Part shown: positions 1,705-18,273 of the stretch, piece by piece | How positions within the stretch are numbered: the stretch's first letter is position 1 | Layout of the letters: each line of letters begins with the position of its first letter | Origin: Mycolicibacterium holsaticum DSM 44478 = JCM 12374 | Lineage (GTDB): Bacteria > Actinomycetota > Actinomycetes > Mycobacteriales > Mycobacteriaceae | Direction of reading: 5' to 3' | NCBI RefSeq assembly: GCF_019645835.1 | Contig: NZ_CP080998.1 | Coordinates: 4,092,001-4,156,000, forward strand | Length of the DNA stretch: 64,000 nt | Translations under genes and position numbers: made by a program | The notes under the pieces: model-generated | Database searches by the model: none | What the model saw: only the letters and a program-made list of their open reading frames with translations | What the model was told of the DNA's origin: nothing

Positions 1705-1798
1705 GTCCGCCGCTTACCCGAGTACTTCTCTGGGAAAACGGTTCGTCGCGACTCTTCGCGATCTGGACGGACCGTCTTTCGCATCCTGTACTGCGCTG

Positions 1799-1824
1799 CG
1801 TTTTCCGCGGTCGTGGGCGGGGTA
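1799..1824 (+). promoter_or_regulatory. SigF-like promoter before the small acidic protein/Nramp operon
   Basis: CGTTT at 1799-1803 is followed after 16 bases by GGGTA at 1820-1824, against a mycobacterial SigF consensus of GGTTT-N15/16-GGGTA. Only one base differs. The next start codon is at 1836, so the transcript would have almost no leader. Assigned by eye. Confidence 0.5.
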
Positions 1825-3756: not shown

Positions 3757-4157
3757 CCGACCGCACCGACCTACCGGTCAAGCGACACCGCGGCAACTCC
3801 CTCGACGCGCGCCTGCAGTTGTTGGACCGTCAACTCGTCGACGCCGACGAGGACCCGATCGGCATCGTCGACGATCTGGAGTTGTCCGGCATCGACCTCG
3901 ACGACGACATCGCAATAGGTTCCGAGGCGCCCCAAGTGACCGCCCTGCTGTCCGGAAAGGTGGTGGCCACCCGCATCTTCGGCGGCACCCCACCGCGTTC
4001 ACACCTTCAGGAGATCCCTTGGCGCCTTGTTCATTCCGTCGGCATCACTGTGAAGCTGAAACCCACCGACATGCGGTTCGACGTCGGGTGGGTGGAGCGA
4101 TGGCTTCGGGACCACATCATCAAACACATACCGGGAGGCCGACATGCGGCTGAGTGA
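3753..4157 (+). CDS. PRC-barrel-like domain protein
   Basis: A 134-residue soluble protein whose ATG overlaps the stop of the transporter gene by 4 bases. The segment RLQLLDRQLVDADEDPIGIV (about residues 20-39) is the beta-barrel signature of PRC-barrel domains, found in the ribosome maturation factor RimM and in photosynthetic reaction centre H subunits. The C-terminus is basic and aromatic. It overlaps the next gene, also PRC-barrel-like, by 14 bases. Two such domains beside a transporter suggest cytosolic regulatory or docking partners, but no partner can be read from the sequence. Confidence 0.7.
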   Translation: MTDRTDLPVKRHRGNSLDARLQLLDRQLVDADEDPIGIVDDLELSGIDLDDDIAIGSEAPQVTALLSGKVVATRIFGGTPPRSHLQEIPWRLVHSVGITVKLKPTDMRFDVGWVERWLRDHIIKHIPGGRHAAE

Positions 4158-4488
4158 ACTCCTGGGGCTGCGGGTGATAGATGCGGGTTCGCATCCGGTG
4201 GGCACCGTCGTCGACATACGACTGACCGTCGCAGGCGATCCCTCGCAGGACCCGCCGACACCACGGGTGCTCGGCCTGATCATCAGCCCGCACAGCAGGG
4301 CATCATTTCTGGGCTACGAACGCATCGATATCGACGGCCCGAAAGCGATTGCCGCACTGTTGCGTTGGGGGCATCGAGGAACGTTCCTTGCCGGCTGGGA
4401 AGATGTCGCCAGGTTGAGCACCGACCACGTCACGCTGCGCAAGGGATACACCAGGTACTCGGCGGCGCTGCGGGCTCGATCCGGCTGA
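4144..4488 (+). CDS. PRC-barrel-like domain protein
   Basis: A 114-residue protein beginning MRLSELLGLRVIDAGSHPVG, followed by TVVDIRLTV, the usual strand-loop-strand opening of a PRC-barrel. The remaining sequence (LGLIISPHS, FLGYERIDI, YTRYSAALRARSG) fits a small beta-rich domain. It begins inside the preceding gene, which is also PRC-barrel-like, so the two may have arisen by duplication and could form a heterodimer. It ends the Nramp operon. No catalytic residues are visible. Confidence 0.7.
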   Translation: MRLSELLGLRVIDAGSHPVGTVVDIRLTVAGDPSQDPPTPRVLGLIISPHSRASFLGYERIDIDGPKAIAALLRWGHRGTFLAGWEDVARLSTDHVTLRKGYTRYSAALRARSG

Positions 4489-4506: not shown

Positions 4507-4932
4507 TCACGGCCGGCGTTCGTGGCCGCGGCGGCCGTCGGTGCGGCGGCGCTCCTTCATCTCCTCCTCGAAGACGTGGCGCGCACCGCCCTGCAGTTCG
4601 TCACGCACATCGCGCTCGTGTCGGCGGAATACCGACCAGTAGTGATCGTCGAACTCCTCGACGACCTGAAAGGTCCACCGGCCGTACAGGACGTTTCGGC
4701 CCACGATTTCGGTCTCCAGTCGCTCGGCAACGCCGTCGTGGCCTGCTCCTCGCAACTTGTCGCACGCCTCGCCGAGCAACAAGTCGGCATGACCCATCAG
4801 CTGGTGAAACGAATACAGCTCCCCGCGGGCGCGTTCGACGCATTCCAATGCCTCCGACACCTTGCCGACGGCCTCCACCGTCGCGTCGTCCACACCCTCG
4901 GGGCGTCGGCTCTGTGTCTGCGGCTCCGTCAT
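4507..4932 (-). CDS. conserved mycobacterial hypothetical protein
   Basis: A 141-residue, mostly helical protein starting MTEPQTQSRRPEGVDDATVE. An ATG six codons upstream (4950) is possible, but the chosen start fits the composition better. It contains ERARGELYSFHQLMGHADLL and ends with a highly charged tail (FEEEMKERRRTDGRRGHERR). No cysteine, signal peptide or membrane segment is present, and I do not recognise a named family. It converges on the second PRC-barrel gene with an 18-base gap and is read away from idi. Confidence 0.65.
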   Translation of the reverse strand: MTEPQTQSRRPEGVDDATVEAVGKVSEALECVERARGELYSFHQLMGHADLLLGEACDKLRGAGHDGVAERLETEIVGRNVLYGRWTFQVVEEFDDHYWSVFRRHERDVRDELQGGARHVFEEEMKERRRTDGRRGHERRP

Positions 4933-5011
4933 ACAACGTTTGATACCCATTACGCACCGGATTGCATCTGAGCAAAGGCATTGTTTTCGCGCCGACGGGT
5001 AGAACTAGGTT

Positions 5012-5572
5012 GTGACGGAGCTGACGGTCGCTGCCAGCGATGACCTGGTGGTATTGCTTGACGAAGCCGGGCGGGAAGTGGGCAGCGCGGCGAAATCGGT
5101 GGTCCATCACCGTGCGACGCCGCTGCATCTCGGGTTCTCCTGCTATGTGTTCGACGCCGACGATCGGGTCCTGTTGACGCGGCGTGCGCTGGGCAAGTTG
5201 ACGTGGCCGGGCGTGTGGTCGAACTCGTTCTGCGGGCACCCGGCGCCCGGCGAGCCGGTCGTCGAGGCGGTGCGACGGCGCGCCCGCCAAGAACTCGGCC
5301 TGTCGTTGGACGCGTTGGAATGCGTGTTGCCGGAGTTTCGCTACCGGGCGGTGGCGGCCGACGGCACCGTGGAGAACGAGATATGTCCGGTGTTCTACGC
5401 CCGCACCGCACAAGCCGTGCAGGTCGATCCGGACGAGGTCATGGAGTGGCGATGGGTGCCCTGGCACGAGCTGCGGTCTGCCGCTGCACTGTCGTGGTCG
5501 ATCAGCCCGTGGGCGGCCGAGCAGGTGCCCCTGCTGGATGCCGCTACGCGCGCGGATCGCCGTTGGGGTTGA
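5012..5572 (+). CDS. idi: isopentenyl-diphosphate delta-isomerase, type 1
   Basis: A 186-residue Nudix-fold enzyme that interconverts isopentenyl and dimethylallyl diphosphate, which feeds prenyl chain synthesis. The GTG start gives MTELTVAAS. The catalytic cysteine lies in SNSFCGHPAPGE and the catalytic glutamate in GTVENEICPVF. The WPGVW segment and RRARQELG of the Nudix helix are in place. Length is normal for the family. It lies tail to tail with the leftward carotenoid operon and overlaps its last gene by 29 bases, which places precursor supply next to carotenoid synthesis. Confidence 0.95.
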   Translation: MTELTVAASDDLVVLLDEAGREVGSAAKSVVHHRATPLHLGFSCYVFDADDRVLLTRRALGKLTWPGVWSNSFCGHPAPGEPVVEAVRRRARQELGLSLDALECVLPEFRYRAVAADGTVENEICPVFYARTAQAVQVDPDEVMEWRWVPWHELRSAAALSWSISPWAAEQVPLLDAATRADRRWG

Positions 5573-9461: not shown

Positions 9462-10415
9462 CTAGGACCTGTTCTCAGCTAGCCGGGCGCGCCACGCCTT
9501 GAGCAGGCCCGCCGCCGCGACCCGGACGCGGCGGGCGTTGCCGACCGTGGCGCGTTGGCTGAAGATCGCGTAGTCGAGAGCTTCGATGCGGTCCAGGATC
9601 TGTGAGTACAGCGTCAGCGCCGCCGAGATGCACGGCCTCGACCGCGGCGCCAGCATCGCAATGCCCTGCTGCGCGTATTCGTAGGTGCGCCTGGTGGTGG
9701 CGTGTTGTTCGACCAGCGCGCGGCGCACCCGCACATCGGTACGGCGGTGATCGTGACACCACGACAGCACGTCGCGGTCGACGTGGTGGGCGGCCAACTC
9801 GTCCGCGGGAAGATAAACCCGGCCGCGCTGCAGGTCTTCGTCGACATCGCGCAGAAAGTTGGTGAGCTGAAAGGCTTTCCCGAGGGCGGCGGCATACGGC
9901 GCGGCTTCCTCGCGCGGGCCGACCGTGCCGAGCACAGGCAGCAACTGCAGGCCGATCACCTCCGCGGAGCCGTGCATGTAGCGGTCGAGCGCGGCCCGGT
10001 TCGCATATTCGGTGACGGTCAGGTCCATCCGCATCGAGTTCAGGAAATCGTCGAACAGCTCCCACGGAATGTCGTACTTGCGGGCGCTGTCCACTACCGC
10101 GGACAGCGCGGGATCGTCGTCGTCGGTGGCGGGGCGCTCGGAGACCATGCGTGAGAACAGCTGGGTGGCCAGATGTTGCAGCCGGTCGGCCCGCTCGGCC
10201 GCGGTCAGGCTCGGGTCGAAGTCATCGAGGATGTCGTCGGCGCGTCGGGCGAATCCGTACAACGCGTGGACGGCAGGCCGTTGTTCGGGGGCAAGGAGGC
10301 GGGTGGCCAGAAAGAAGGTGCGCCCGTGTTCGGCGTTGAGCCGGCGGCAGCATAGATACGCATCGCGCAGCGCCGGATCTCGTACGCCCGCGGCATCAAG
10401 CTCGGAACTGATCAT
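9462..10415 (-). CDS. crtB: phytoene synthase
   Basis: A 317-residue prenyl synthase that condenses two geranylgeranyl diphosphates to phytoene. The first aspartate-rich motif is RRADDILDDFD and the second is TNFLRDVDEDLQRGRVYLP, the trans-isoprenyl diphosphate synthase signature. GRTFFLATRLL near the N-terminus is also typical. The start MISSELDAA at 10415 is chosen because it overlaps the crtI stop by 4 bases; a longer upstream frame has no coding character. Confidence 0.95.
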   Translation of the reverse strand: MISSELDAAGVRDPALRDAYLCCRRLNAEHGRTFFLATRLLAPEQRPAVHALYGFARRADDILDDFDPSLTAAERADRLQHLATQLFSRMVSERPATDDDDPALSAVVDSARKYDIPWELFDDFLNSMRMDLTVTEYANRAALDRYMHGSAEVIGLQLLPVLGTVGPREEAAPYAAALGKAFQLTNFLRDVDEDLQRGRVYLPADELAAHHVDRDVLSWCHDHRRTDVRVRRALVEQHATTRRTYEYAQQGIAMLAPRSRPCISAALTLYSQILDRIEALDYAIFSQRATVGNARRVRVAAAGLLKAWRARLAENRS

Positions 10416-11929
10416 GTCTGCACCACCTGTGATTTCCTGTGCCGGGAAGGCATCCCGGTGATCCGGTCGGCAGCCAGCCGACCGGACAACAGCGCTGTCG
10501 GTACGCCGACGCCGGGCACCGTCGAGGATCCGGCGAGCACGACGTTGTCGATGCCGCGCACAACGTTGGCCGGACGGAACGGGCCCGTCTGGGCGAAGGT
10601 GTGCGCGAGCGCGAACGGGGTGCCCGCAGCCATGCCCTGCCGCTCCCACCCGGCGGGGTCGACCGCGTGCAGGATTTCGGTGTCGACGCCCAGCTGCGGA
10701 AGCCGGTTGACGACCGAGTCGAGCATCTCACCGACGTACGCGTCCCCTTGTTTGACCCAGTCGACGTCGCCCACAACGGTGTTCGGTGCTGGAGCCAGGA
10801 TGTAGAGCAGATCTCGGCCCGCGGGTGCCAGGCTCGGATCGCTGGCGGTCGGGCGTGTCACCAACAGGGACGGGTCACTCATCACGCGCCCGTCGTCGAT
10901 GATGTCGCGGAAGGTCTGGTCCCACGACCTGCCGAAGACGACGGTGTGGTGCCCGGTGCCTGCCGTGTCGTCGGGTACCGCCCGGCACCCCACATGCGCG
11001 ACCACCGCGGACGGCGCGGCACGCAACCGCAGCAGCCGCCGCGGGGTGCGCCCGAGCAGGCGGTAGGTGTCGGGTAGTTCGGTGGTCAGCACCACCGCGT
11101 CGGCCGGAACCCGCTCACCGGCGTCGGTGTGCACCGCCGTCACCCGGTCGCTGTGGCGCTCCAGACTCGAAACCGCCGAGCCGTAGCGGAATTCGACGCC
11201 GGCATCGGCGGCCGCGGCGGCCAGCGCATCGGGCAGCGCCCGCATGCCGCCACGGGGAAAGTAGACACCGGAGATGGTGTCCATGTAGGCGATGACGGCA
11301 TAGACGGCCAGCGCCCGCCGCGGCGGCACACCGGCGTAGAGGGCCTGGAAGGTGAAAACGCGTCGCAACCGTTCGTCGGAGATGAACCGACGCACCATGC
11401 GGTCCCAGCGCCGGAAGCCGCCGATGGCGGCCAGCCGCGCCAACTGCGGGGTCAGCAGCGACAGCGGTGAGTCGAAGTTGGCCGCGATGAACCCGTCGAA
11501 CTCCACGCGGTACAGCCGGGTGAGCCAGTCACGCAGCCGCAGATAGCCTTCGGCCTCGCCCGCGCCGGCCAACCGCTCCACCTCGGCGGCCATCGCGCCC
11601 GGGTCGCTGTGCACGTCGAGGCCGCTGCCGTCGGCGAACGACGCACGGTAGCCGGGCCGCACCGGCATCAGGTCCAGCCGGTCGGCCATGGACTCGCCGA
11701 CGGCGGCGAAAGCGTCCTCGATGATGTCGGGCATGGTCAGCACGGTCGGGCCGGTGTCCAGCCGGTATCCGTCGACGTCCATGCGGCCGACCCGGCCGCC
11801 TGGGTGCACACCGCGCTCGACGACGGTGACCGCCCGGCCCCTGCCCGCCAGTTGCAGCGCCGCCGACAACCCGGCCAGCCCGGCGCCGACCACGACGACG
11901 TGATCGCAACTACCCTGGACTGTTCGCAT
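10412..11929 (-). CDS. crtI: phytoene desaturase
   Basis: A 505-residue FAD-dependent desaturase. The N-terminal dinucleotide motif is HVVVVGAGLAGLSAALQLAG, followed by PGGRVGRMDVDGYRLDTGPT, typical of CrtI. The C-terminal bacterial-type phytoene dehydrogenase signature includes VVLAGSSTVPGVGVPTALLS. It introduces four double bonds to make lycopene. The ATG at 11929 follows crtE by 22 bases with a GAGGGCAGG sequence upstream. Length fits the family. Confidence 0.95.
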   Translation of the reverse strand: MRTVQGSCDHVVVVGAGLAGLSAALQLAGRGRAVTVVERGVHPGGRVGRMDVDGYRLDTGPTVLTMPDIIEDAFAAVGESMADRLDLMPVRPGYRASFADGSGLDVHSDPGAMAAEVERLAGAGEAEGYLRLRDWLTRLYRVEFDGFIAANFDSPLSLLTPQLARLAAIGGFRRWDRMVRRFISDERLRRVFTFQALYAGVPPRRALAVYAVIAYMDTISGVYFPRGGMRALPDALAAAAADAGVEFRYGSAVSSLERHSDRVTAVHTDAGERVPADAVVLTTELPDTYRLLGRTPRRLLRLRAAPSAVVAHVGCRAVPDDTAGTGHHTVVFGRSWDQTFRDIIDDGRVMSDPSLLVTRPTASDPSLAPAGRDLLYILAPAPNTVVGDVDWVKQGDAYVGEMLDSVVNRLPQLGVDTEILHAVDPAGWERQGMAAGTPFALAHTFAQTGPFRPANVVRGIDNVVLAGSSTVPGVGVPTALLSGRLAADRITGMPSRHRKSQVVQT

Positions 11930-11951
11930 ACCCGACACCTGCCCTCGCTTC

Positions 11952-13055
11952 TCACGCCGCTCGCGTGGTGCAGGTTGCGGCCATGTCGGCCAACGCTTTT
12001 CGCACCGACTCACTGATATGCGGTATCTGGATGCCCTGCAGGGCCCGGCACACCCGCTCGTCGATCATCTGCTCGATCGACTCAACCGCTCCCGTCTGCG
12101 CGATCAGCCGCCGCCACCGGCGGATATCGGCTTCGCCGAGATCGGCTGCGCACATCAGCGCGGCGAGCTCGCGGCGCAACGAGGGATCGGCGAGGTGGTA
12201 GGCCGACACCACGACGCTGGTGGCCTTGTGCTCGGACAGGTCGACCCCGGACGGCTTGCCGGTCACCGCCGGGGCTCCGAAGACCCCCAGCAGGTCATCG
12301 CGCATCTGGAACGCTTCGCCGATCGCCTCGCCATACACGGAGAGCGCGGTCAGCACACCGTGGCCGCATCCGGCCAGCGCGGCGCCGATCTCGAGGGGCC
12401 GGCGCACCGTGTAGTTGCCCGACTTGCGTCGTGACACGTCGAGCACCTGTTCCCAGCTGGGAAAGCCGCCCGCGTCGTTGACGAGGTCGGCGAACTGGCC
12501 GACGGCGAGTTCGGTGCGCATCGCGTCGTATCGCGGCCAGGCGCGGGACAGCGCCGCGGCCGCCACGCCGCTTTCCCGCAGCATCTGCTCGGCCCACACC
12601 AGGCACAGGTCGCCCAGCAGCACGGCGGCCGACTCACCGAACCGGTCGGGCGATCCGGTCATCCCGCGCTCGCGATGCCAGCACGCGAACGCGACGTGAG
12701 CGGCCGGATGTCCGCGGCGCAAGGTGGATCCGTCCATGACGTCGTCCTGCAGCAGCGCGAACGCGTGCAGCAGTTCCATGCTGGCCGCGGCCCGCAGCGC
12801 GGCGGGGTCCTCGTCTCGGCCGCACAGCCAGCCCAGGTACGTGAACGTCGAACGCAGGCATTTTCCGCCGGTGAGAAAGCGCAACAGGATGTCGCCGGTG
12901 ATTTCGACGCCGGTCTTCCCGAGCTGGTCGGCGCCACGCTCGGCGACGAACCCGGTCACCGCATCCGAGACGGCGTCGCGCACGTCTGCGCGCCACGAGG
13001 CCGACGACAGGGGCGCCGAGGCAAGGGCGCACGTCTGTCCGTCACCTACGCTCAA
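11952..13055 (-). CDS. crtE: geranylgeranyl diphosphate synthase
   Basis: A 367-residue trans-prenyltransferase and first gene of the carotenoid operon. The chain-elongation motifs are ALLQDDVMDGSTLRRG (first Asp-rich) and FQMRDDLLGVFG (second Asp-rich); GGKCLRSTFTYLGW binds diphosphate. The start is a TTG at 13055, supported by an AAGGA ribosome binding site seven bases upstream and by a SigF-like promoter 35-60 bases upstream. It extends farnesyl or shorter diphosphates to C20. The rare TTG start may limit entry into the pathway. Confidence 0.93.
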   Translation of the reverse strand: MSVGDGQTCALASAPLSSASWRADVRDAVSDAVTGFVAERGADQLGKTGVEITGDILLRFLTGGKCLRSTFTYLGWLCGRDEDPAALRAAASMELLHAFALLQDDVMDGSTLRRGHPAAHVAFACWHRERGMTGSPDRFGESAAVLLGDLCLVWAEQMLRESGVAAAALSRAWPRYDAMRTELAVGQFADLVNDAGGFPSWEQVLDVSRRKSGNYTVRRPLEIGAALAGCGHGVLTALSVYGEAIGEAFQMRDDLLGVFGAPAVTGKPSGVDLSEHKATSVVVSAYHLADPSLRRELAALMCAADLGEADIRRWRRLIAQTGAVESIEQMIDERVCRALQGIQIPHISESVRKALADMAATCTTRAA

Positions 13056-13089
13056 GGTTCGTCCTTTTTCTCGTCCGGCGTTCGTTCAC

Positions 13090-13114
13090 TACCCACTTCG
13101 AGGTAAAACGAACC
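13090..13114 (-). promoter_or_regulatory. SigF-like promoter of the crt operon
   Basis: On the minus strand GGTTC (13114-13110) is followed after 15 bases by GGGTA (13094-13090), one mismatch to the SigF consensus. Transcription would begin about 28 bases before the crtE TTG codon. A perfect 7-base inverted repeat GTTCGTT/AACGAAC (13080-13086 and 13107-13113) overlaps the site and could be an operator. Confidence 0.65.
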
Positions 13115-13219
13115 GCCGAGCGCTCACCGCGCCGATCTCTCACCCCGGGGCCTGCGCGGCGGGCCGCCCGCCGATTTGGCCGATCCCCCGAAAGCTGTTT
13201 TCGTGCAACGGCTATCGCA

Positions 13220-13696
13220 TCATCGATGCCGATTGAGGAGCCAGATGTGGGTGGACAGCGCGGTAGCGAACGCGCACCACGCCGGGTAGGGCGTCAGGGC
13301 CAGCGCGCTCTTGCCGCTGACCGCCGTCGCCCGTCGGGTCAAGTCGGCGCTGCTCGCCGTCAGGGCGGCCGCGGTCACCGCGGCCAGTCCCAGCCGGCGT
13401 TGGCTGAAGAAGATCCAGGACCAGCCGGCGTTGAGCAGCAAGTTGACCGACAACGCTGCGGTGTACGCCTTACGCCGGGTGTCGTCGCTGTCGTCGAGTG
13501 CCTTCGCCGAGACCAGCGCGATGTCGGTGTACAGCAGCGGCCACACCACCGGGAACACGCTGCTCGGCGGTTGGTACGGCGGCTTGCGCAGCTTGTTGAA
13601 CCACCGTGACTGCGGGTTGCGGCCCGTGGACGCGCCGCCGACCAGAGCCGTCGCGGTGACGGCGGCTGCGGCCGCCCCAAGTGTCTTGATACGCAA
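13220..13696 (-). CDS. tspO: TspO/MBR family membrane protein
   Basis: A 158-residue protein with five predicted membrane helices. The family signature RKPPYQPPSSVFPVVWPLLY is present, and NLLLNAGWSWIFFSQRRLG matches helices 3-4. TspO proteins bind porphyrins and cholesterol-like ligands. The Rhodobacter member was first called crtK because it lies in a carotenoid cluster, and this gene likewise sits just upstream of crtE in the same direction. A TTG start at 13696 follows a GGAG sequence by five bases. There is a candidate SigF promoter upstream. Confidence 0.85.
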   Translation of the reverse strand: MRIKTLGAAAAAVTATALVGGASTGRNPQSRWFNKLRKPPYQPPSSVFPVVWPLLYTDIALVSAKALDDSDDTRRKAYTAALSVNLLLNAGWSWIFFSQRRLGLAAVTAAALTASSADLTRRATAVSGKSALALTPYPAWCAFATALSTHIWLLNRHR

Positions 13697-13769
13697 GGTT
13701 ACTCCGATCGATGGCGGTCACGGCCGACGCGCGGCCTTCACCGGGAGTACCCAGTCGACGCGGCTCCGA

Positions 13770-13794
13770 TACCCCCGCGTTTAGCCCGTCGACC
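13770..13794 (-). promoter_or_regulatory. possible SigF-like promoter of tspO
   Basis: Minus strand GGTCG (13794-13790), 15-base spacer, GGGTA (13774-13770). The -10 element is perfect and the -35 has two mismatches. A second GGGTA lies at 13752-13748. The leader to the tspO start would be about 65 bases. Confidence 0.4.
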
Positions 13795-13803
13795 GCCAGG
13801 GAA
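13778..13803 (+). promoter_or_regulatory. weak SigF-like promoter of csbD
   Basis: CGTTT (13778-13782), 16-base spacer, GGGAA (13799-13803). Each element has one mismatch to the consensus. It overlaps the divergent tspO candidate, so the two promoters would be back to back. Confidence 0.35.
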
Positions 13804-13887
13804 CCCCACGGTTTGCGTGGGGAGACTCCGCGGTTCGGCCCAAGAAGTGGGCAAGACCGATCCACTGCAATAGCGGAAAGGCGACCA

Positions 13888-14127
13888 ATGACAGAGAAGA
13901 ACAGCGGCCCGCAAGAGGGCATCAAAGGCGCCGTCGAGGACGTCAAGGGCAAGGCCAAGGAAACGGTCGGCACCGTGACCGGCCGTGACGACATGGTTCG
14001 TGAGGGCAAGGCTCAGCAGGACAAGGCCGACGCTCAGCAAAACGCGGCCAAGAAGGAAGCCGAGGCCGAGGCGGCCCGTGGCGGCGCCCGCGCCGCCGAA
14101 GAGCGCCAGGAGTCCGAGCAGCGCTGA
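13888..14127 (+). CDS. CsbD family stress protein
   Basis: A 79-residue, highly charged, largely helical or disordered protein starting MTEKNSGPQEGIKGAVEDVK. The CsbD-like signature GKAKETVGTVTGRDDMVREG is followed by Ala/Glu/Gln-rich repeats. CsbD is a general-stress protein of unknown biochemical function, controlled in Bacillus by SigB, the counterpart of mycobacterial SigF. A GGAAAGG sequence lies eight bases before the ATG. A strong terminator follows the stop. Confidence 0.88.
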   Translation: MTEKNSGPQEGIKGAVEDVKGKAKETVGTVTGRDDMVREGKAQQDKADAQQNAAKKEAEAEAARGGARAAEERQESEQR

Positions 14128-14137
14128 CATCACGAGA

Positions 14138-14175
14138 AGAGGCCCAGCCGGAGATCCGGCTGGGCCTCTTTTCTG
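14138..14175 (+). terminator. intrinsic terminator after csbD
   Basis: A perfect 14-base stem (AGAGGCCCAGCCGG at 14138-14151 and its complement at 14156-14169) with a 4-base AGAT loop is followed by a run of T. Such a clean rho-independent terminator is uncommon in mycobacterial DNA. It may serve usfY from the other side as well. Confidence 0.9.
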
Positions 14176-14181
14176 TGTTGG

Positions 14182-14490
14182 CTAACTGCTGGGTCGTTGA
14201 CGTTGTGCGTCGGGATGCTCGGCGTACCAACGGTCTTCGATCTTGCGTACGCGCAGGTGCTCGACCGCGAACCAGCCAAGCGACACGATGAACAGGCCTG
14301 CGGAAATGCAGCCCAGCGTGACGCCCACGCTGTGGTGGGTGGTGGCGTGCGCGGCTAGGGCTGCGACGAAGGCGACAAGCGCAAGGCCGAGCACGATGAG
14401 CGCCGGCAGGTTCTTGTTGTCCTTCATGGTCTCGCCGGCATGCGGACGCGTCGTCCGGGAATGGTCGACGGGGTCGTTCGGGCTCTTCAT
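14182..14490 (-). CDS. usfY: UsfY-like stress membrane protein
   Basis: A 102-residue protein with the UsfY opening (DPVDHSRTTRPHAGE), two membrane helices (PALIVLGLALVAFVAALAA and TLGCISAGLFIVSLGWFAVE) and the tail RKIEDRWYAEHPDAQRQRPS. In M. tuberculosis usfY lies beside the rsbW-sigF pair; here neither neighbour is rsbW or sigF. A perfect SigF promoter precedes it, so it is likely a strong SigF target. Its biochemical role is unknown. Confidence 0.85.
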   Translation of the reverse strand: MKSPNDPVDHSRTTRPHAGETMKDNKNLPALIVLGLALVAFVAALAAHATTHHSVGVTLGCISAGLFIVSLGWFAVEHLRVRKIEDRWYAEHPDAQRQRPSS

Positions 14491-14514
14491 GGCTACTCCT
14501 CTCCCGGCTAGAAC

Positions 14515-14540
14515 TACCCGACTGGGCTGGGAAAGAAACC
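14515..14540 (-). promoter_or_regulatory. perfect SigF consensus promoter of usfY
   Basis: Minus strand GGTTT (14540-14536), exactly 16 bases, GGGTA (14519-14515), identical to the mycobacterial SigF consensus. The usfY ATG is 25 bases from the -10 element, after a GGGAGAGGAG ribosome binding region. Confidence 0.8.
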
Positions 14541-14547
14541 GCCGATG

Positions 14548-15180
14548 TCACTGGTAAGGCGGATATTGATCATCGCGCAGCACCCTGGCGAGGTGGGCGG
14601 CGTTGCGCGCCACGGCCGCGGTGGTCTTGGCCACCGGTTCGGGCACCTCGTCCAGGTCGTTGTAGTCCGTGGACTGCATGGCTTCCCCGGTCCAGTAGGT
14701 GCCGCCCTGGGCCGGGATGGAAAAGCCGATGTCGTTGAGCCCCTGGAACATGTCCGCGATGATCTTGTGCGCGCCGTCTTCGTTGCCGACGACCGCGACC
14801 ACCGCCACCTTGCCGACCATGACCGGCCGTCCGGCGTCGTCGGTGGTGGACAGCTCGGCGTCGAGGCGCTCCAGCACGCGCTGGGCGATGCTGGACGGAT
14901 GGCCGACCCACACCGGGGTGGACAGCACCACGATGTCGGCGTCGATCAGCTTCTGCCGGAGCTGTGGCCATTCGTCGCCGTCGCCCATGTCGGCTTCCAC
15001 GCCGGGCGATATCGCGTAGTCCGCGCACCGCAGGATTTCGGTTTGTACGCCGGCGCTGCGGAGGTGCTCGCAAACGTGCTCGGCCATCAACTCGCTGCTC
15101 GACGGTGCGGGGCGGGGTTTGAGGCTGCACACCAGCGCCACCGCGGTAAGCGGCCGCGGGGCGCTCGCCGGCGCGCTCAC
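14548..15180 (-). CDS. flavodoxin-like NAD(P)H-dependent FMN reductase
   Basis: A 210-residue protein of the NADPH-dependent FMN reductase/flavodoxin fold. The phosphate-binding loop lies in CSLKPRPAPSSSELMAEHV and the FMN-contacting segment in VVLSTPVWVGHPSSIAQRVL, followed by VAVVAVVGNEDGAH. The GTG start at 15180 overlaps the stop of the upstream membrane protein by 4 bases, so the two form an operon, probably driven by the SigF-like site at 15604-15628. A role in reducing quinones or flavins under stress is likely but not proven. Confidence 0.8.
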   Translation of the reverse strand: MSAPASAPRPLTAVALVCSLKPRPAPSSSELMAEHVCEHLRSAGVQTEILRCADYAISPGVEADMGDGDEWPQLRQKLIDADIVVLSTPVWVGHPSSIAQRVLERLDAELSTTDDAGRPVMVGKVAVVAVVGNEDGAHKIIADMFQGLNDIGFSIPAQGGTYWTGEAMQSTDYNDLDEVPEPVAKTTAAVARNAAHLARVLRDDQYPPYQ

Positions 15181-15548
15181 AGTCCGAACACCGTGGGCCC
15201 GGCCACCGCCGGCAAGCTCATCGTGACCACCAACAACATCAGCGTCAACAGGAACCAGCCGGCGCCTTGCCAGGCCCAGAAGGGCTCGTGCGTACGCCAT
15301 GCCCGATACGTGCGGAAGAACGCGCGCAACGCGCCGATCAGCAAGATGGCGGGCGCACCCAACGCCAGCACCGCGCGCTGCGGTGCGCCGCAGGCCACGG
15401 TGTCGGCCGTCGCTCCCGAGCACGTGCTCACCCAGACGGCGGCGGTGATCAGGAACGCCACCGCGACGACCCCCACCACCACCGCGAAACGGACCGCGTC
15501 GCGCGCACTCGAATCGATGCGCCGCAATTCGCCAGGACTCTGATGCAC
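15177..15548 (-). CDS. small integral membrane protein (Rv3289c-like position)
   Basis: A 123-residue protein with three predicted membrane spans (FAVVVGVVAVAFLITAAVWV, AVLALGAPAILLIGALRAFF and FLLTLMLLVVTMSLPAVA). The GTG start at 15548 follows GGGGAGAAG. It has two cysteines in the loop after the first span (STCSGATADTVACGAP), possibly a disulfide. It lies between usfY and lat, as Rv3289c does in M. tuberculosis, and is probably its counterpart. Function unknown. Confidence 0.7.
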   Translation of the reverse strand: MHQSPGELRRIDSSARDAVRFAVVVGVVAVAFLITAAVWVSTCSGATADTVACGAPQRAVLALGAPAILLIGALRAFFRTYRAWRTHEPFWAWQGAGWFLLTLMLLVVTMSLPAVAGPTVFGL

Positions 15549-15603
15549 TGCTCGCTTCTCCCCGGTTTCCCTGTCCGCCGTGCCCCCGATGACGCGGAGG
15601 ATA

Positions 15604-15628
15604 TTCCCGCGCGCGAGCCGGATAAACC
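15604..15628 (-). promoter_or_regulatory. SigF-like promoter of the membrane protein/flavin reductase pair
   Basis: Minus strand GGTTT (15628-15624), 15 bases, GGGAA (15608-15604). There is one mismatch in the -10 element. It sits immediately downstream of the PAS-ANTAR gene. Confidence 0.55.
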
Positions 15629-16309
15629 TCAGGATTCGACGCGATTATGCGCGGTCAGCAGCAGCCTGTCGTAGTTGGACCGGGGCGGTAGGACTTCGTC
15701 ATAGTGCAACTCCAGGAAGTCCCGTACGATTTGCTGGGCCAGCGTTCTGAGCTTGGTGTTGGTCTCCTGCGAACGCCACTTGAGCAGTTCGAACGCCGAT
15801 TCGGCGCTGATCCGGTAGACCAGCATCAACATGCCCTTGGCCTGCTCGATCACCCCGCGCGCCTCGGCGATCTCCGCGACCGCCGCAGTGACCATCCTGT
15901 TCTGCCGCTCGGTCATCGCCGGCGTGACGTCCACGTAGAACCCGTGGGTGCCGACCACGGCGCCGGCATCGTCGAAGATCTGGTCTCCGACCACAACGAC
16001 GTGATGGGTCTGGCCGCGGGTGTCGATGATCCGATGGCGGGTGGAGAAGGCGCCCGCGGTCCGCTTGATCTCCTCGAGCGTCGCGGCGACCTGACCGTAA
16101 TCGTCTGGATGCTTGTGCGACAACACGAGATCGGTGGTCGGCTCGACGGTGTCGGGGTCGTATCCGTGCATCCGTTGCACCTGCGGTGACCATTCCCAGC
16201 GCTCGTCGGCGAAATAGAAGCGGAACCAACCGACCCGTTGGGGGTCCCCGCCCGCGAGGGCGTGCTCGACGGAGGTTTGCCCGTCTAACTCGACCGACTC
16301 ATCAGCCAT
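15629..16309 (-). CDS. PAS-ANTAR regulator
   Basis: A 226-residue protein. The N-terminal PAS domain (about residues 30-130) includes GWFRFYFADERWEWSPQVQ and SHKHPDDYGQVAATLEEI. The C-terminal ANTAR domain (about residues 140-205) includes GVIEQAKGMLMLVYRISAES and KLRTLAQQIVRDFLE. ANTAR domains bind paired RNA hairpins and prevent transcription termination. The PAS domain probably senses redox, light or a ligand. The ATG at 16309 was chosen over one 15 codons upstream because the divergent gene region begins there. It adjoins the SigF-like block. Confidence 0.88.
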   Translation of the reverse strand: MADESVELDGQTSVEHALAGGDPQRVGWFRFYFADERWEWSPQVQRMHGYDPDTVEPTTDLVLSHKHPDDYGQVAATLEEIKRTAGAFSTRHRIIDTRGQTHHVVVVGDQIFDDAGAVVGTHGFYVDVTPAMTERQNRMVTAAVAEIAEARGVIEQAKGMLMLVYRISAESAFELLKWRSQETNTKLRTLAQQIVRDFLELHYDEVLPPRSNYDRLLLTAHNRVES

Positions 16310-16412
16310 GCCTGGAAGATTAACCCTGCTTCGGCGAGCAGACATTGCGGCCACGCAACACTTCGCAATGTGGACAACCGGGGACGTCGGTGCGCACGCC
16401 TACGATGCGGCT

Positions 16413-16967
16413 GTGCGGTTCAAGGTGTACCTGCTCATCGGCGTCGCCTCGGGCGCCGCCGCGTACCTGCTCGGCCTCGACGTCGGCTGGAGCATTGCCG
16501 TCGGTGTGGCCGCACCGCTTGTTCTGGCCGCGGCGCCGTCGTTCCTCGCGGGCACGTTCACGGGGCTGCGGTCCGCCGCAGATCCGGCGGAGGCCATGTC
16601 CGGCACCGAGTTCGAAGACCACGTCGCGCGGATCGCCCGCTCCTGCGGGCTGCCGGTGATCATGACGTCACTGACCGGCGACTGGGGCGTCGACATCATC
16701 GTCGGGAAGCGGCCCAACCGGTTGGCCATCCAGTGCAAGCGCCAGTCACGGCCCGTCGGCACCGCCGCGGTGCAGGAGGTGGTGGCGGGCGCACCGATGC
16801 AGGACTGCGCCAAGACCATGGTGGTCACCAACAACGAGTTCACCCCTGCGGCACGCAAACTCGCGGCGTTGCACGGGTGTGAGCTGATCGGCGGTGCAGA
16901 GCTACGCCGGTTGCCCGCGGAGATACGCCGGCTCACGGCGCCCGCAGCGCCGACGGAGATCAGCTGA
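16413..16967 (+). CDS. membrane-anchored Mrr-like restriction endonuclease domain protein
   Basis: A 184-residue protein from a GTG start (VRFKVYLLIGV); an ATG at 16368 is an alternative. Two hydrophobic spans lie in the first 55 residues. The C-terminal domain has the PD-(D/E)xK arrangement of Mrr_cat nucleases: GTEFEDHVARI, then GDWGVDIIV with the catalytic aspartate, then AIQCKRQ with the Q-x-K motif. Such proteins cleave or bind modified DNA; membrane anchoring suggests a surveillance role, by inference. It converges on lat and overlaps it by 8 bases. Confidence 0.75.
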   Translation: MRFKVYLLIGVASGAAAYLLGLDVGWSIAVGVAAPLVLAAAPSFLAGTFTGLRSAADPAEAMSGTEFEDHVARIARSCGLPVIMTSLTGDWGVDIIVGKRPNRLAIQCKRQSRPVGTAAVQEVVAGAPMQDCAKTMVVTNNEFTPAARKLAALHGCELIGGAELRRLPAEIRRLTAPAAPTEIS

Positions 16968-18273
16968 GGGCATCGCGCACGGCGTGGATCGCGGCGTCGA
17001 TCTCATCGCACGTGACCGTCAGCGCCGGACGGAACCGCACCCCGTCGGGCCCGGTCGCCAATACGATCACCCGGCGTTCCCACAGCCCACGCAGCAGGGC
17101 ATCGCGCTGCGCTGCGGACGGCAGGCTGAACGCGCACATCAGACCGCGCCCGCGCACGTCGAGCACCACGCCGGAAAACTCCTCGGCCAGGTCCTTCAGC
17201 CGATCCAGCAGGTACCCGCCGGTATGGGCCGCCCGCGTGATCAACTGGTCGGCTTCGATGATTTCCAGGACGCGCCGTGCCCGGACCATGTCGACGAGGT
17301 TGCCGCCCCAGGTGGAGTTGAGCCGCGAGCTCACCACGAAGACGTTGTCGGCCACCTCGTCGACCCGCCGACCCGCCATGATCCCGCACACCTGGGTCTT
17401 CTTGCCGAACGCCACGATGTCGGGCGTCACGCCCAGTTGCTGGTAGGCCCAAGCGGTTCCGGTGAGGCCGCACCCGGTCTGCACTTCGTCGAAGATCAAC
17501 AAGGCGTCGAACTCGTCGCACAGTTTGCGCATCGCCGTGAAGAACTGCGGCCGCATATGCCGGTCGCCACCTTCACCCTGGATCGGCTCGGCGATGAAGC
17601 AGGCGATGTCGTGCGGGTTGGCTTCGAATGCCGCCCGGGCTTGGGCGAGCGAATGTGCTTCCACCGCAGCCATGTCGGCGTCCCGGCGCAGGACGGGGGC
17701 GTCGATGCGTGGCCAGTCGAACTTGGGGAATCGGGCGACCTTGTTCGGGTCGGTGTTGGTCAGCGAGAGCGTGTACCCGCTGCGGCCGTGGAACGCGCCG
17801 GTCAGATGTAACACCTTGGCGCCCAAGCTGGCATCGATACCGCGGGCTTCGTTGCGCCTGCTCTTCCAGTCGAACGCCACCTTCAGCGCGTTCTCGACGG
17901 CCAGCGCGCCGCCGTCGATGAAGAACAGGTGCGGCAGCGCGGGGTCGCCGAGCACCCGGACGAAGGTGTCGACGAACCGCGCCATCGGCACGGTGTAGAC
18001 GTCGGAGTTGCTGGGTTTGTTCACCGCGGCCTGTATCAGCTCGGCGCGGATCTGCACGTCGGTCAGGGCGGGGTGGTTCATGCCGAGCGCCGAGGATGCG
18101 AAGAACGTGAACATGTCGAGGTAGCGCGCGCCGGTGCGGGCGTCGACCAGACAGGAACCCGCTGAACGTTCGAGGTCGAGCACGAGGTCGAAACCGTCGG
18201 TCAGCATGCTGCGCGCCAACACTTGGTGCACATCGCGCGGTGCGACGTCGCGTGGCGTCAAGACAGCGGTCAT
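16960..18273 (-). CDS. lat: L-lysine 6-aminotransferase
   Basis: A 437-residue class III PLP aminotransferase that moves the epsilon amino group of lysine to 2-oxoglutarate, giving alpha-aminoadipate semialdehyde (piperideine-6-carboxylate). The PLP lysine is in DIVAFGKKTQVCGI, preceded by DALLIFDEVQTGCGLTG, and HLTGAFHGRSGYTLSLTNTD is typical. lrpA is upstream in the same direction, and pcd, which takes the next step, is read the other way beyond lrpA. In M. tuberculosis lat is strongly induced in starvation under LrpA control. Confidence 0.95.
   Translation of the reverse strand: MTAVLTPRDVAPRDVHQVLARSMLTDGFDLVLDLERSAGSCLVDARTGARYLDMFTFFASSALGMNHPALTDVQIRAELIQAAVNKPSNSDVYTVPMARFVDTFVRVLGDPALPHLFFIDGGALAVENALKVAFDWKSRRNEARGIDASLGAKVLHLTGAFHGRSGYTLSLTNTDPNKVARFPKFDWPRIDAPVLRRDADMAAVEAHSLAQARAAFEANPHDIACFIAEPIQGEGGDRHMRPQFFTAMRKLCDEFDALLIFDEVQTGCGLTGTAWAYQQLGVTPDIVAFGKKTQVCGIMAGRRVDEVADNVFVVSSRLNSTWGGNLVDMVRARRVLEIIEADQLITRAAHTGGYLLDRLKDLAEEFSGVVLDVRGRGLMCAFSLPSAAQRDALLRGLWERRVIVLATGPDGVRFRPALTVTCDEIDAAIHAVRDALS

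Follow-up and report, generated by a model that had tools for sequence, protein, structure and literature searches.

In Mycobacterium smegmatis, deletion of sigF lowers expression of MSMEG_1766-1775, the UsfY genes MSMEG_1769 and MSMEG_1777, the TspO gene MSMEG_1131 and the carotenoid (crt) genes MSMEG_2343-2347, with consensus sites listed (PMC4694148). The same source gives the mycobacterial SigF consensus as GTTT-N14-19-GGGTA, records degenerate promoter copies in this species, and lists as lowered without sigF 28 of the 39 loci numbered MSMEG_1766 to MSMEG_1804, including, by microarray, MSMEG_1766 (GTTT-N16-GGGAA) and MSMEG_1770 (GTTT-N16-GGGCA). A second form of the consensus, GGWWT-N16-17-GGGTAY, is found in another study, where MSMEG_1777 is SigF-dependent and induced when respiration is inhibited (PMC7693655). 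In M. kansasii, crt genes and tspO are among 14 light-induced genes and crt has a MarR-type repressor, CrtR; the term SigF is absent from the main text of that paper as far as it was accessible (PMC9861118). Here we describe a locus of M. holsaticum DSM 44478 in which a whole crt block lies with tspO, a csbD-like gene (csbD), usfY and a small membrane protein gene (memb) in the neighbourhood of sigF. It is contained in a stretch of 64,000 nucleotides, the window (G000:C1:4092001-4156000; G numbers are genomes, G000 being M. holsaticum, and L numbers are loci). General-stress control of carotenoid genes, cited as known in the initial annotation of this DNA, is indeed on record, since crt expression falls in M. 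smegmatis without sigF (PMC4694148). The regulation is thus already known; the gene arrangement is new.

We consider it probable (about 0.8) that this is a sigF neighbourhood with its usual core, that the crt block and tspO were inserted into it in this lineage, and that SigF transcribes crtE, tspO, csbD, usfY and memb together. The usual core would comprise csbD, usfY and the membrane gene, here with a flavin mononucleotide (FMN) reductase gene, and with an aminotransferase gene that we take to be lat alongside. The lineage-specific event would be the insertion of the whole carotenoid block and tspO between prc4144 and csbD. Under stress or respiratory inhibition, SigF would be released from RsbW, RNA polymerase carrying SigF would start at crtE, tspO, csbD, usfY and the membrane gene together, and pigment and the other products would rise as one response. 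That SigF reads these sites in M. holsaticum is what their sequence suggests (Table 1).

Table 1. Putative promoters and genes of the locus, in window positions; scores are matches out of ten to GGTTT/GGGTA.
Feature	Position	Strand	Remarks
usfY SigF-type promoter	14515-14540	-	perfect GGTTT-N16-GGGTA
crtE SigF-type promoter	13090-13114	-	GGTTC-N15-GGGTA, 9/10; 34 nt upstream of start
tspO SigF-type promoter	13748-13773	-	GGTAT-N16-GGGTA, 9/10
csbD SigF-type promoter	13778-13803	+	CGTTT-N16-GGGAA, 8/10
membrane/FMN-reductase genes SigF-type promoter	15604-15628	-	GGTTT-N15-GGGAA, 9/10
crtE (prenyl diphosphate synthase), first crt-block gene	11952..13055	-	PF00348; crtE-I-B order conserved in relatives
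crtI	10412..11929	-	conserved gene order
tspO	13220..13696	-	PF03073, 119.1 vs cut-off of 24 bits
csbD-like gene, NCBIfam microaggregate-binding protein 1 (MBP-1)	13888..14127	+	PF05532, NF050175
usfY	14182..14490	-	NF041247 UsfY equivalog, 139.4 vs cut-off of 100 bits
FMN reductase-like gene	14548..15180	-	PF03358
memb (small membrane protein), first of gene pair	15177..15548	-	no Pfam or NCBIfam match
PAS-ANTAR regulator, frequent neighbour	15629..16315	-	PF03861, PF08447
class III aminotransferase (presumably lat), neighbourhood anchor	16960..18273	-	PF00202
idi-like NUDIX gene, near far end of crt block	5012..5572	+	PF00293; adjoins Rieske/crt genes in relatives
duf147, small gene travelling with crt block	4507..4950	-	no Pfam or NCBIfam match
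prc4144, last gene ahead of inserted block	4144..4488	+	immediately precedes csbD where relatives lack the block

The perfect site before usfY and the copies with one or two mismatches before crtE, tspO, csbD and the membrane/flavin reductase genes, all reported in the initial annotation, are present. The SigF-type form is thus observed for all five units, with tspO and csbD the weakest. The usfY site is the only GGTTT-N14..18-GGGTA in the window (0.07 expected), and the promoters of tspO and csbD face away from each other, their -35 elements separated by 4 bases. Between 13055 and 15628 (2.57 kb), four sites score at least 9/10 against 0.19 expected (Poisson P ~5e-5), the background being 19 stretches of 20 kb from the same genome with 28 such sites in 380 kb. 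A control motif with the two elements reversed yielded no site of at least 9 in this interval and 26 in the background. The N15 spacers before crtE and memb fit the GTTT-N14-19-GGGTA consensus, not GGWWT-N16-17-GGGTAY. In a random 150-nt one-strand window, the best score reaches at least 9 with P = 0.004 and at least 8 with P = 0.064; the csbD promoter was therefore called on conservation, not on its match. Another candidate for csbD, the best N17 match at 13810-13836 (GGTTT...GGTTC), was dropped in favour of 13778-13803, which is the conserved one.

Over the longer interval from sigF to lat (32.3 kb), 11 matches of at least 9/10 were counted, some of them single sites counted at two spacings, against 2.4 expected and none for the control. 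The initial annotation had proposed a genome scan to judge how rare such sites are; across 5.62 Mb, GTTT-N15..17-GGGTA occurs 44 times and the reversed pattern 16 times. According to a crude gene finder, 26 of the 44 have a same-strand open frame starting within the next 250 bp, and 14 others are located inside open frames. Five of the 44 fall in the 27 kb adjoining sigF. Clustering is not unique to the usfY/crt locus, since another 11-kb stretch (G000:C1:468311-479344, L272) also holds five exact sites; three of these precede open frames, including a luciferase-like and a likely catalase gene (names by eye). An identical 25-base SigF-like match, probably lying inside a repeated element, was seen at G000:C1:1562609-1562633 (-) and 2754092-2754116 (+). 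Other exact GTTT-N15/16-GGGTA sites lie 10-13 nt before sugar-transfer-type open frames at window 1715-1739 (-) and G000:C1:4090577-4090600 (+); from another at window 1800-1824 (+), the distance to the open frame that follows is 239 nt. Parts of the variable sugar cluster between rsbW and csbD may be SigF-dependent too.

The same motif and control were run over the regions upstream of orthologous genes. Identical regions, those shorter than 120 nt and crtE hits that began beyond residue 60 had been removed, and individual sites were displayed for at most the first 45 regions of each gene. Conservation exceeded the control for memb, csbD, usfY and crtE and was weak for tspO. For memb, 26 of 27 regions score at least 8 (control 0/27), the commonest form being GTTTA-N16-GGGAA, which matches the form available for MSMEG_1766. 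All 29 csbD regions score at least 8 (control 3/29), with NGTTT-N15/16-GGG[ACT]A as the best hit in 25, and the csbD site aligns in G000 and its sisters G068 and G208, even if the motif scan by itself chose another place in G208. The usfY site scores at least 9 in 18 of 32 regions (control 0/32), and its promoter elements are identical in both sisters, as are GGTTC and GGGTA of crtE. For crtE, 54 of 82 regions score at least 8 (control 16/82), 27 at least 9 (control 2/82) and nine the full 10/10; in the serA-ilvC loci displayed (see below) the site reads CGRTT-N15-GGGTA, which is just 8/10. The csbD leader (13804-13887) is long and carries a small hairpin (CGGGGA-AGT-TCCCCG type) retained in relatives: across 12 aligned leaders, two of the six stem pairs have changed on both sides with pairing retained, and the copy in the window is itself imperfect. 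This could be an RNA element or a DNA palindrome. An Rfam search of window 11000-17500, read up to E = 1, gave three matches, none of which reached its gathering score (best E 0.22).

The genome encodes SigF with RsbW. The sigF gene (307 bits, over the family cut-off) lies to the left of the window on the same strand as usfY and 27.5 kb from it, overlapped upstream by an rsbW-like gene whose product has weak anti-sigma matches under the cut-offs and is 64-89% identical to that of the syntenic gene in relatives. Of the 34 genomes that match UsfY best, 33 have sigF and usfY on one contig and the same strand, 0.8-27.5 kb apart, the value for M. holsaticum being the largest; in the 34th, G068, they are on separate contigs. 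Longer regions from 20 of the other 33 genomes all contain both csbD and usfY (adjacent in 19, separated by 6.4 kb in L062), and 18 of them contain memb; csbD is also seen in 24 of 30 short usfY loci. The stretch from rsbW to csbD is variable and holds a sugar/heptose-type cluster, nramp, short-chain dehydrogenases, or little. It is thus the usfY-sigF distance that is unusual, not the neighbourhood. Because the csbD-usfY-memb core near sigF is common to relatives, usfY is at home and the pigment genes are the newcomers. The initial annotation described usfY as normally next to sigF but here sitting with pigment genes; read as a departure of usfY from sigF, this takes the rearrangement the wrong way round. 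We rejected such a relocation, as usfY keeps its usual neighbours near sigF across relatives, and it is probably the pigment block that moved.

In G000, G208 and G068 the crt block lies between prc4144 and tspO-csbD (seen in the window and in L186/L187; the order is deduced for G068, where a break between contigs C19 and C29 separates duf147 from idi). In nine of the 15 relatives whose crt locus was fetched (G079, G114, G107, G102, G104, G040, G065, G011 and G066) the block lies between serA and ilvC, in the order leuB-serA-crtE-I-B-Yc-Yd-MT-(crtU)-Rieske-idi-MerR-duf147-ilvC. The named records L076-L079, L081 and L120, M. lehmannii included, have the same order, at least two of these six being genomes already among the nine; M. 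sediminis (L095) has crt and idi between serA and ilvC with neither MerR nor duf147, and in G133 crtI is ~3 kb from serA. In M. holsaticum and its two sisters the serA-ilvC gap is ~1.5 kb with no crt, MerR or duf147 gene inside, so that block and MerR are absent from the location they occupy in the nine relatives. MerR was found in nine of 15 genomes searched, and neither in these three nor in G002, G095 and G042; since the latter three also lack it, its absence alone does not prove loss. The insertion point would be the prc4144-csbD junction, because the five of ten examined loci that have prc4144 all carry it between nramp and csbD and directly before csbD. The small duf147 gene adjoins idi-MerR at serA-ilvC in relatives and also in M. 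deserti. Only these three genomes have crtE beside tspO among the 30 best TspO loci (396 genomes), and usfY was found in none of 80 named crtI loci, many of them with short flanks. Such a union of the crt block and the sigF locus is unusual: it is lineage-specific and was seen in few of the species examined. The density and arrangement of sites, held to be notable in the initial annotation, can be kept in part: the sites exceed chance and the crt merger is unusual, and the density is what is usual for a sigF island, as far as the M. smegmatis source shows.

We infer that the crt block moved into the sigF locus from the serA-ilvC location. SigF control as a creation of this move is disfavoured, given that many relatives with crtE elsewhere in the chromosome also have a SigF-like site in front of it. 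Most likely a promoter already in place was carried along, and the crtE promoter is probably older than the move. Narrow windows at the block ends contained no repeat of at least 9 bases; wider windows gave two direct repeats, one of 11 bases that recurs in the crtE-tspO gap and one of 10 bases that recurs in the tspO-csbD gap, either of which may be due to chance, and no inverted repeats of at least 9 bases. Some further features of crt loci were seen. A GGCAT-N15-GGGTA match (8/10) lies at window 4977-5001 (+), 10 nt upstream of idi. A csbD-like gene (62%) adjoins crtE in L132 and lies 6 kb off in L119; the former (L132:8371-9000, Mycobacterium 852002-51163) stands beside crtE with no usfY. 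The MerR gene inside the block (L079:17559-18395) and the GATGCA repeats upstream of crtE in L076-L079 form a possible regulator-operator pair, patchy in occurrence and not claimed here.

M. deserti (G396 = L080) has on one contig tetR-crtE...idi-MerR-duf147-pcd-lrpA-lat-...-usfY-csbD-...-rsbW-sigF, that is, a crt block near sigF at another junction (tetR/pcd) and with MerR retained. A tree of 12 proteins groups it with the serA-ilvC species and not with M. holsaticum (support 55), and forced grouping with M. holsaticum was not rejected (approximately unbiased, AU, p = 0.055). Across 66 genomes whose sigF and crtI share a contig (53 of 57 and 11 of 23 from two crtI tables, plus G396 and G397 of 38 named records, these being the ones for which the contig was known), the shortest crtI-sigF distances are those of G208 (10.7 kb), M. 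deserti (16.3 kb, measured from the end of its crt block at 205000, its crtI being ~24 kb from sigF) and M. holsaticum (23.6 kb); the next is 80 kb and the median 565 kb. Circularity was ignored, and where crtI is present twice (G168, G172, G185) the distance is that of the copy closer to sigF. It is a tentative and rather doubtful idea that the sigF neighbourhood serves repeatedly as a landing zone for genes that already have SigF promoters: the crt block would have entered at least twice at different junctions, before csbD in M. holsaticum and its sisters and between tetR and pcd in M. deserti, and in the first case it would have joined tspO and lost MerR, so that a pigment operon under local regulation would have become an output of general stress alone. 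For the proximity to sigF, the null explanation is drift within a variable region.

Several observations weigh against insertion of the block into a SigF-controlled core. The usfY site scores below 9 in 14 of 32 upstream regions; for tspO only 9 of 38 reach 9 (control 2/38) and the sisters retain only its -10 GGGTA, so that tspO is the least certain of the five units. Nor does the core always include the FMN reductase gene, which is absent in G208, reduced to a 57-residue remnant in G068 and had no hit in several other relatives. The crt genes lie outside serA-ilvC in six of the 15 relatives (G002, G095, G042, G028, G034, G096), and the direction of the move is read by parsimony from trees with weak backbone support. 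It might rather be that the block was acquired from another mycobacterium and the resident serA-ilvC copy lost, instead of an intragenomic move. In favour of such an origin, the crt genes of the three genomes form a long separate branch of unresolved position. Against it, the gene order, with duf147 last, is shared with near relatives and points to their block, and CrtI is 79-83% identical to those of the nine serA-ilvC relatives; we regard acquisition as unlikely.

The reader of the promoters may also not be SigF alone, because the genome has two further SigB/F/G-family sigma genes (G000:C1:1254278-1254949 and 3614916-3615575), one of which has near-identical DNA-reading regions by eye. Were one of these paralogues the main reader, SigF would play a minor part: both exceed the TIGR02980 cut-off, and the first shares nearly the same stretches FVSFAVPTIMGEVRRHFRD and LTQTQIAERVGISQMHVSRLL with SigF and has an exact GTTT-N17-GGGTA upstream. 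The concentration of exact sites beside sigF speaks for SigF itself, as does the fact that deletion of sigF alone lowers UsfY, TspO and crt genes in M. smegmatis (PMC4694148), and we consider the paralogues unlikely to be the principal readers. Chance clustering of a loose motif in a GC-rich genome has in its favour that 8/10 matches are common (474 in 380 kb), that csbD reaches just 8, and that motif and control are nearly equal in background 9/10 hits; the excess of high-scoring sites in the 2.6 kb, where the control has none, and the conservation of the sites in relatives make it highly improbable. The SigF-type sites that the initial annotation placed before all five units are supported by conservation and by the M. 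smegmatis deletion data for UsfY, TspO and crt, with tspO and csbD the weakest (PMC4694148).

Assignments of the individual products are uneven. The csbD-like product exceeds the cut-offs of Pfam CsbD (42.6 vs 40) and NF050175 (114.8 vs 80 bits). The tspO gene is the sole TspO match in the genome at E<=1e-15 and misses the NCBIfam equivalog cut-off (78.7 vs 180 bits), and the crtE product is under that of NCBIfam CrtE. By position or promoter form, memb presumably resembles Rv3289c and MSMEG_1766; MSMEG_1766 and MSMEG_1770 are candidate orthologues of memb and csbD respectively. A literature search found no paper on csbD with SigF in mycobacteria (one hit, Bacillus), and csbD is the least documented part of the regulon, unless MSMEG_1770 is its counterpart. 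In the result listings and abstract beginnings of open-licence papers, the search found none naming crt genes within the sigF locus.

The closest described system is the SigF island of M. smegmatis, MSMEG_1758-1804, in which UsfY genes, the conserved hypothetical MSMEG_1766, its neighbour MSMEG_1770, a type I topoisomerase, an RsbW gene and sigF are among the lowered genes, with the same promoter type (PMC4694148). There, however, the crt operon (MSMEG_2343-2347) and TspO (MSMEG_1131) lie outside the island, and crtE is described as distant from the crt locus, whereas in M. holsaticum all are inside. The light-induced locus of M. kansasii likewise has a crtE-I-B-Yc-Yd operon with an isomerase gene nearby, and tspO is induced by the same signal, light; in contrast, that operon is controlled by a local repressor, CrtR, and tspO belongs to a different locus with a photolyase (PMC9861118), while in M. 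holsaticum tspO abuts crtE and the crt block contains no gene recognised as a regulator.

The serA-crt-idi-MerR-duf147-ilvC locus of M. lehmannii and relatives (L079, others) has the same block in the same order and a GGGTA-type site before crtE, but occupies another chromosomal place, has the extra MerR (in several with Tudor-domain and DUF3140 genes) and shows no tspO in the fetched flanks. With the direction of the rearrangement corrected, the pigment genes and not usfY having probably moved, these loci offer a natural comparison: the same block with a GGGTA-type crtE site stands at serA-ilvC, beside csbD or beside pcd, with and without MerR. Such a comparison allows a test of whether a regulon gathered round its sigma factor changes control, or whether the proximity reflects drift only.

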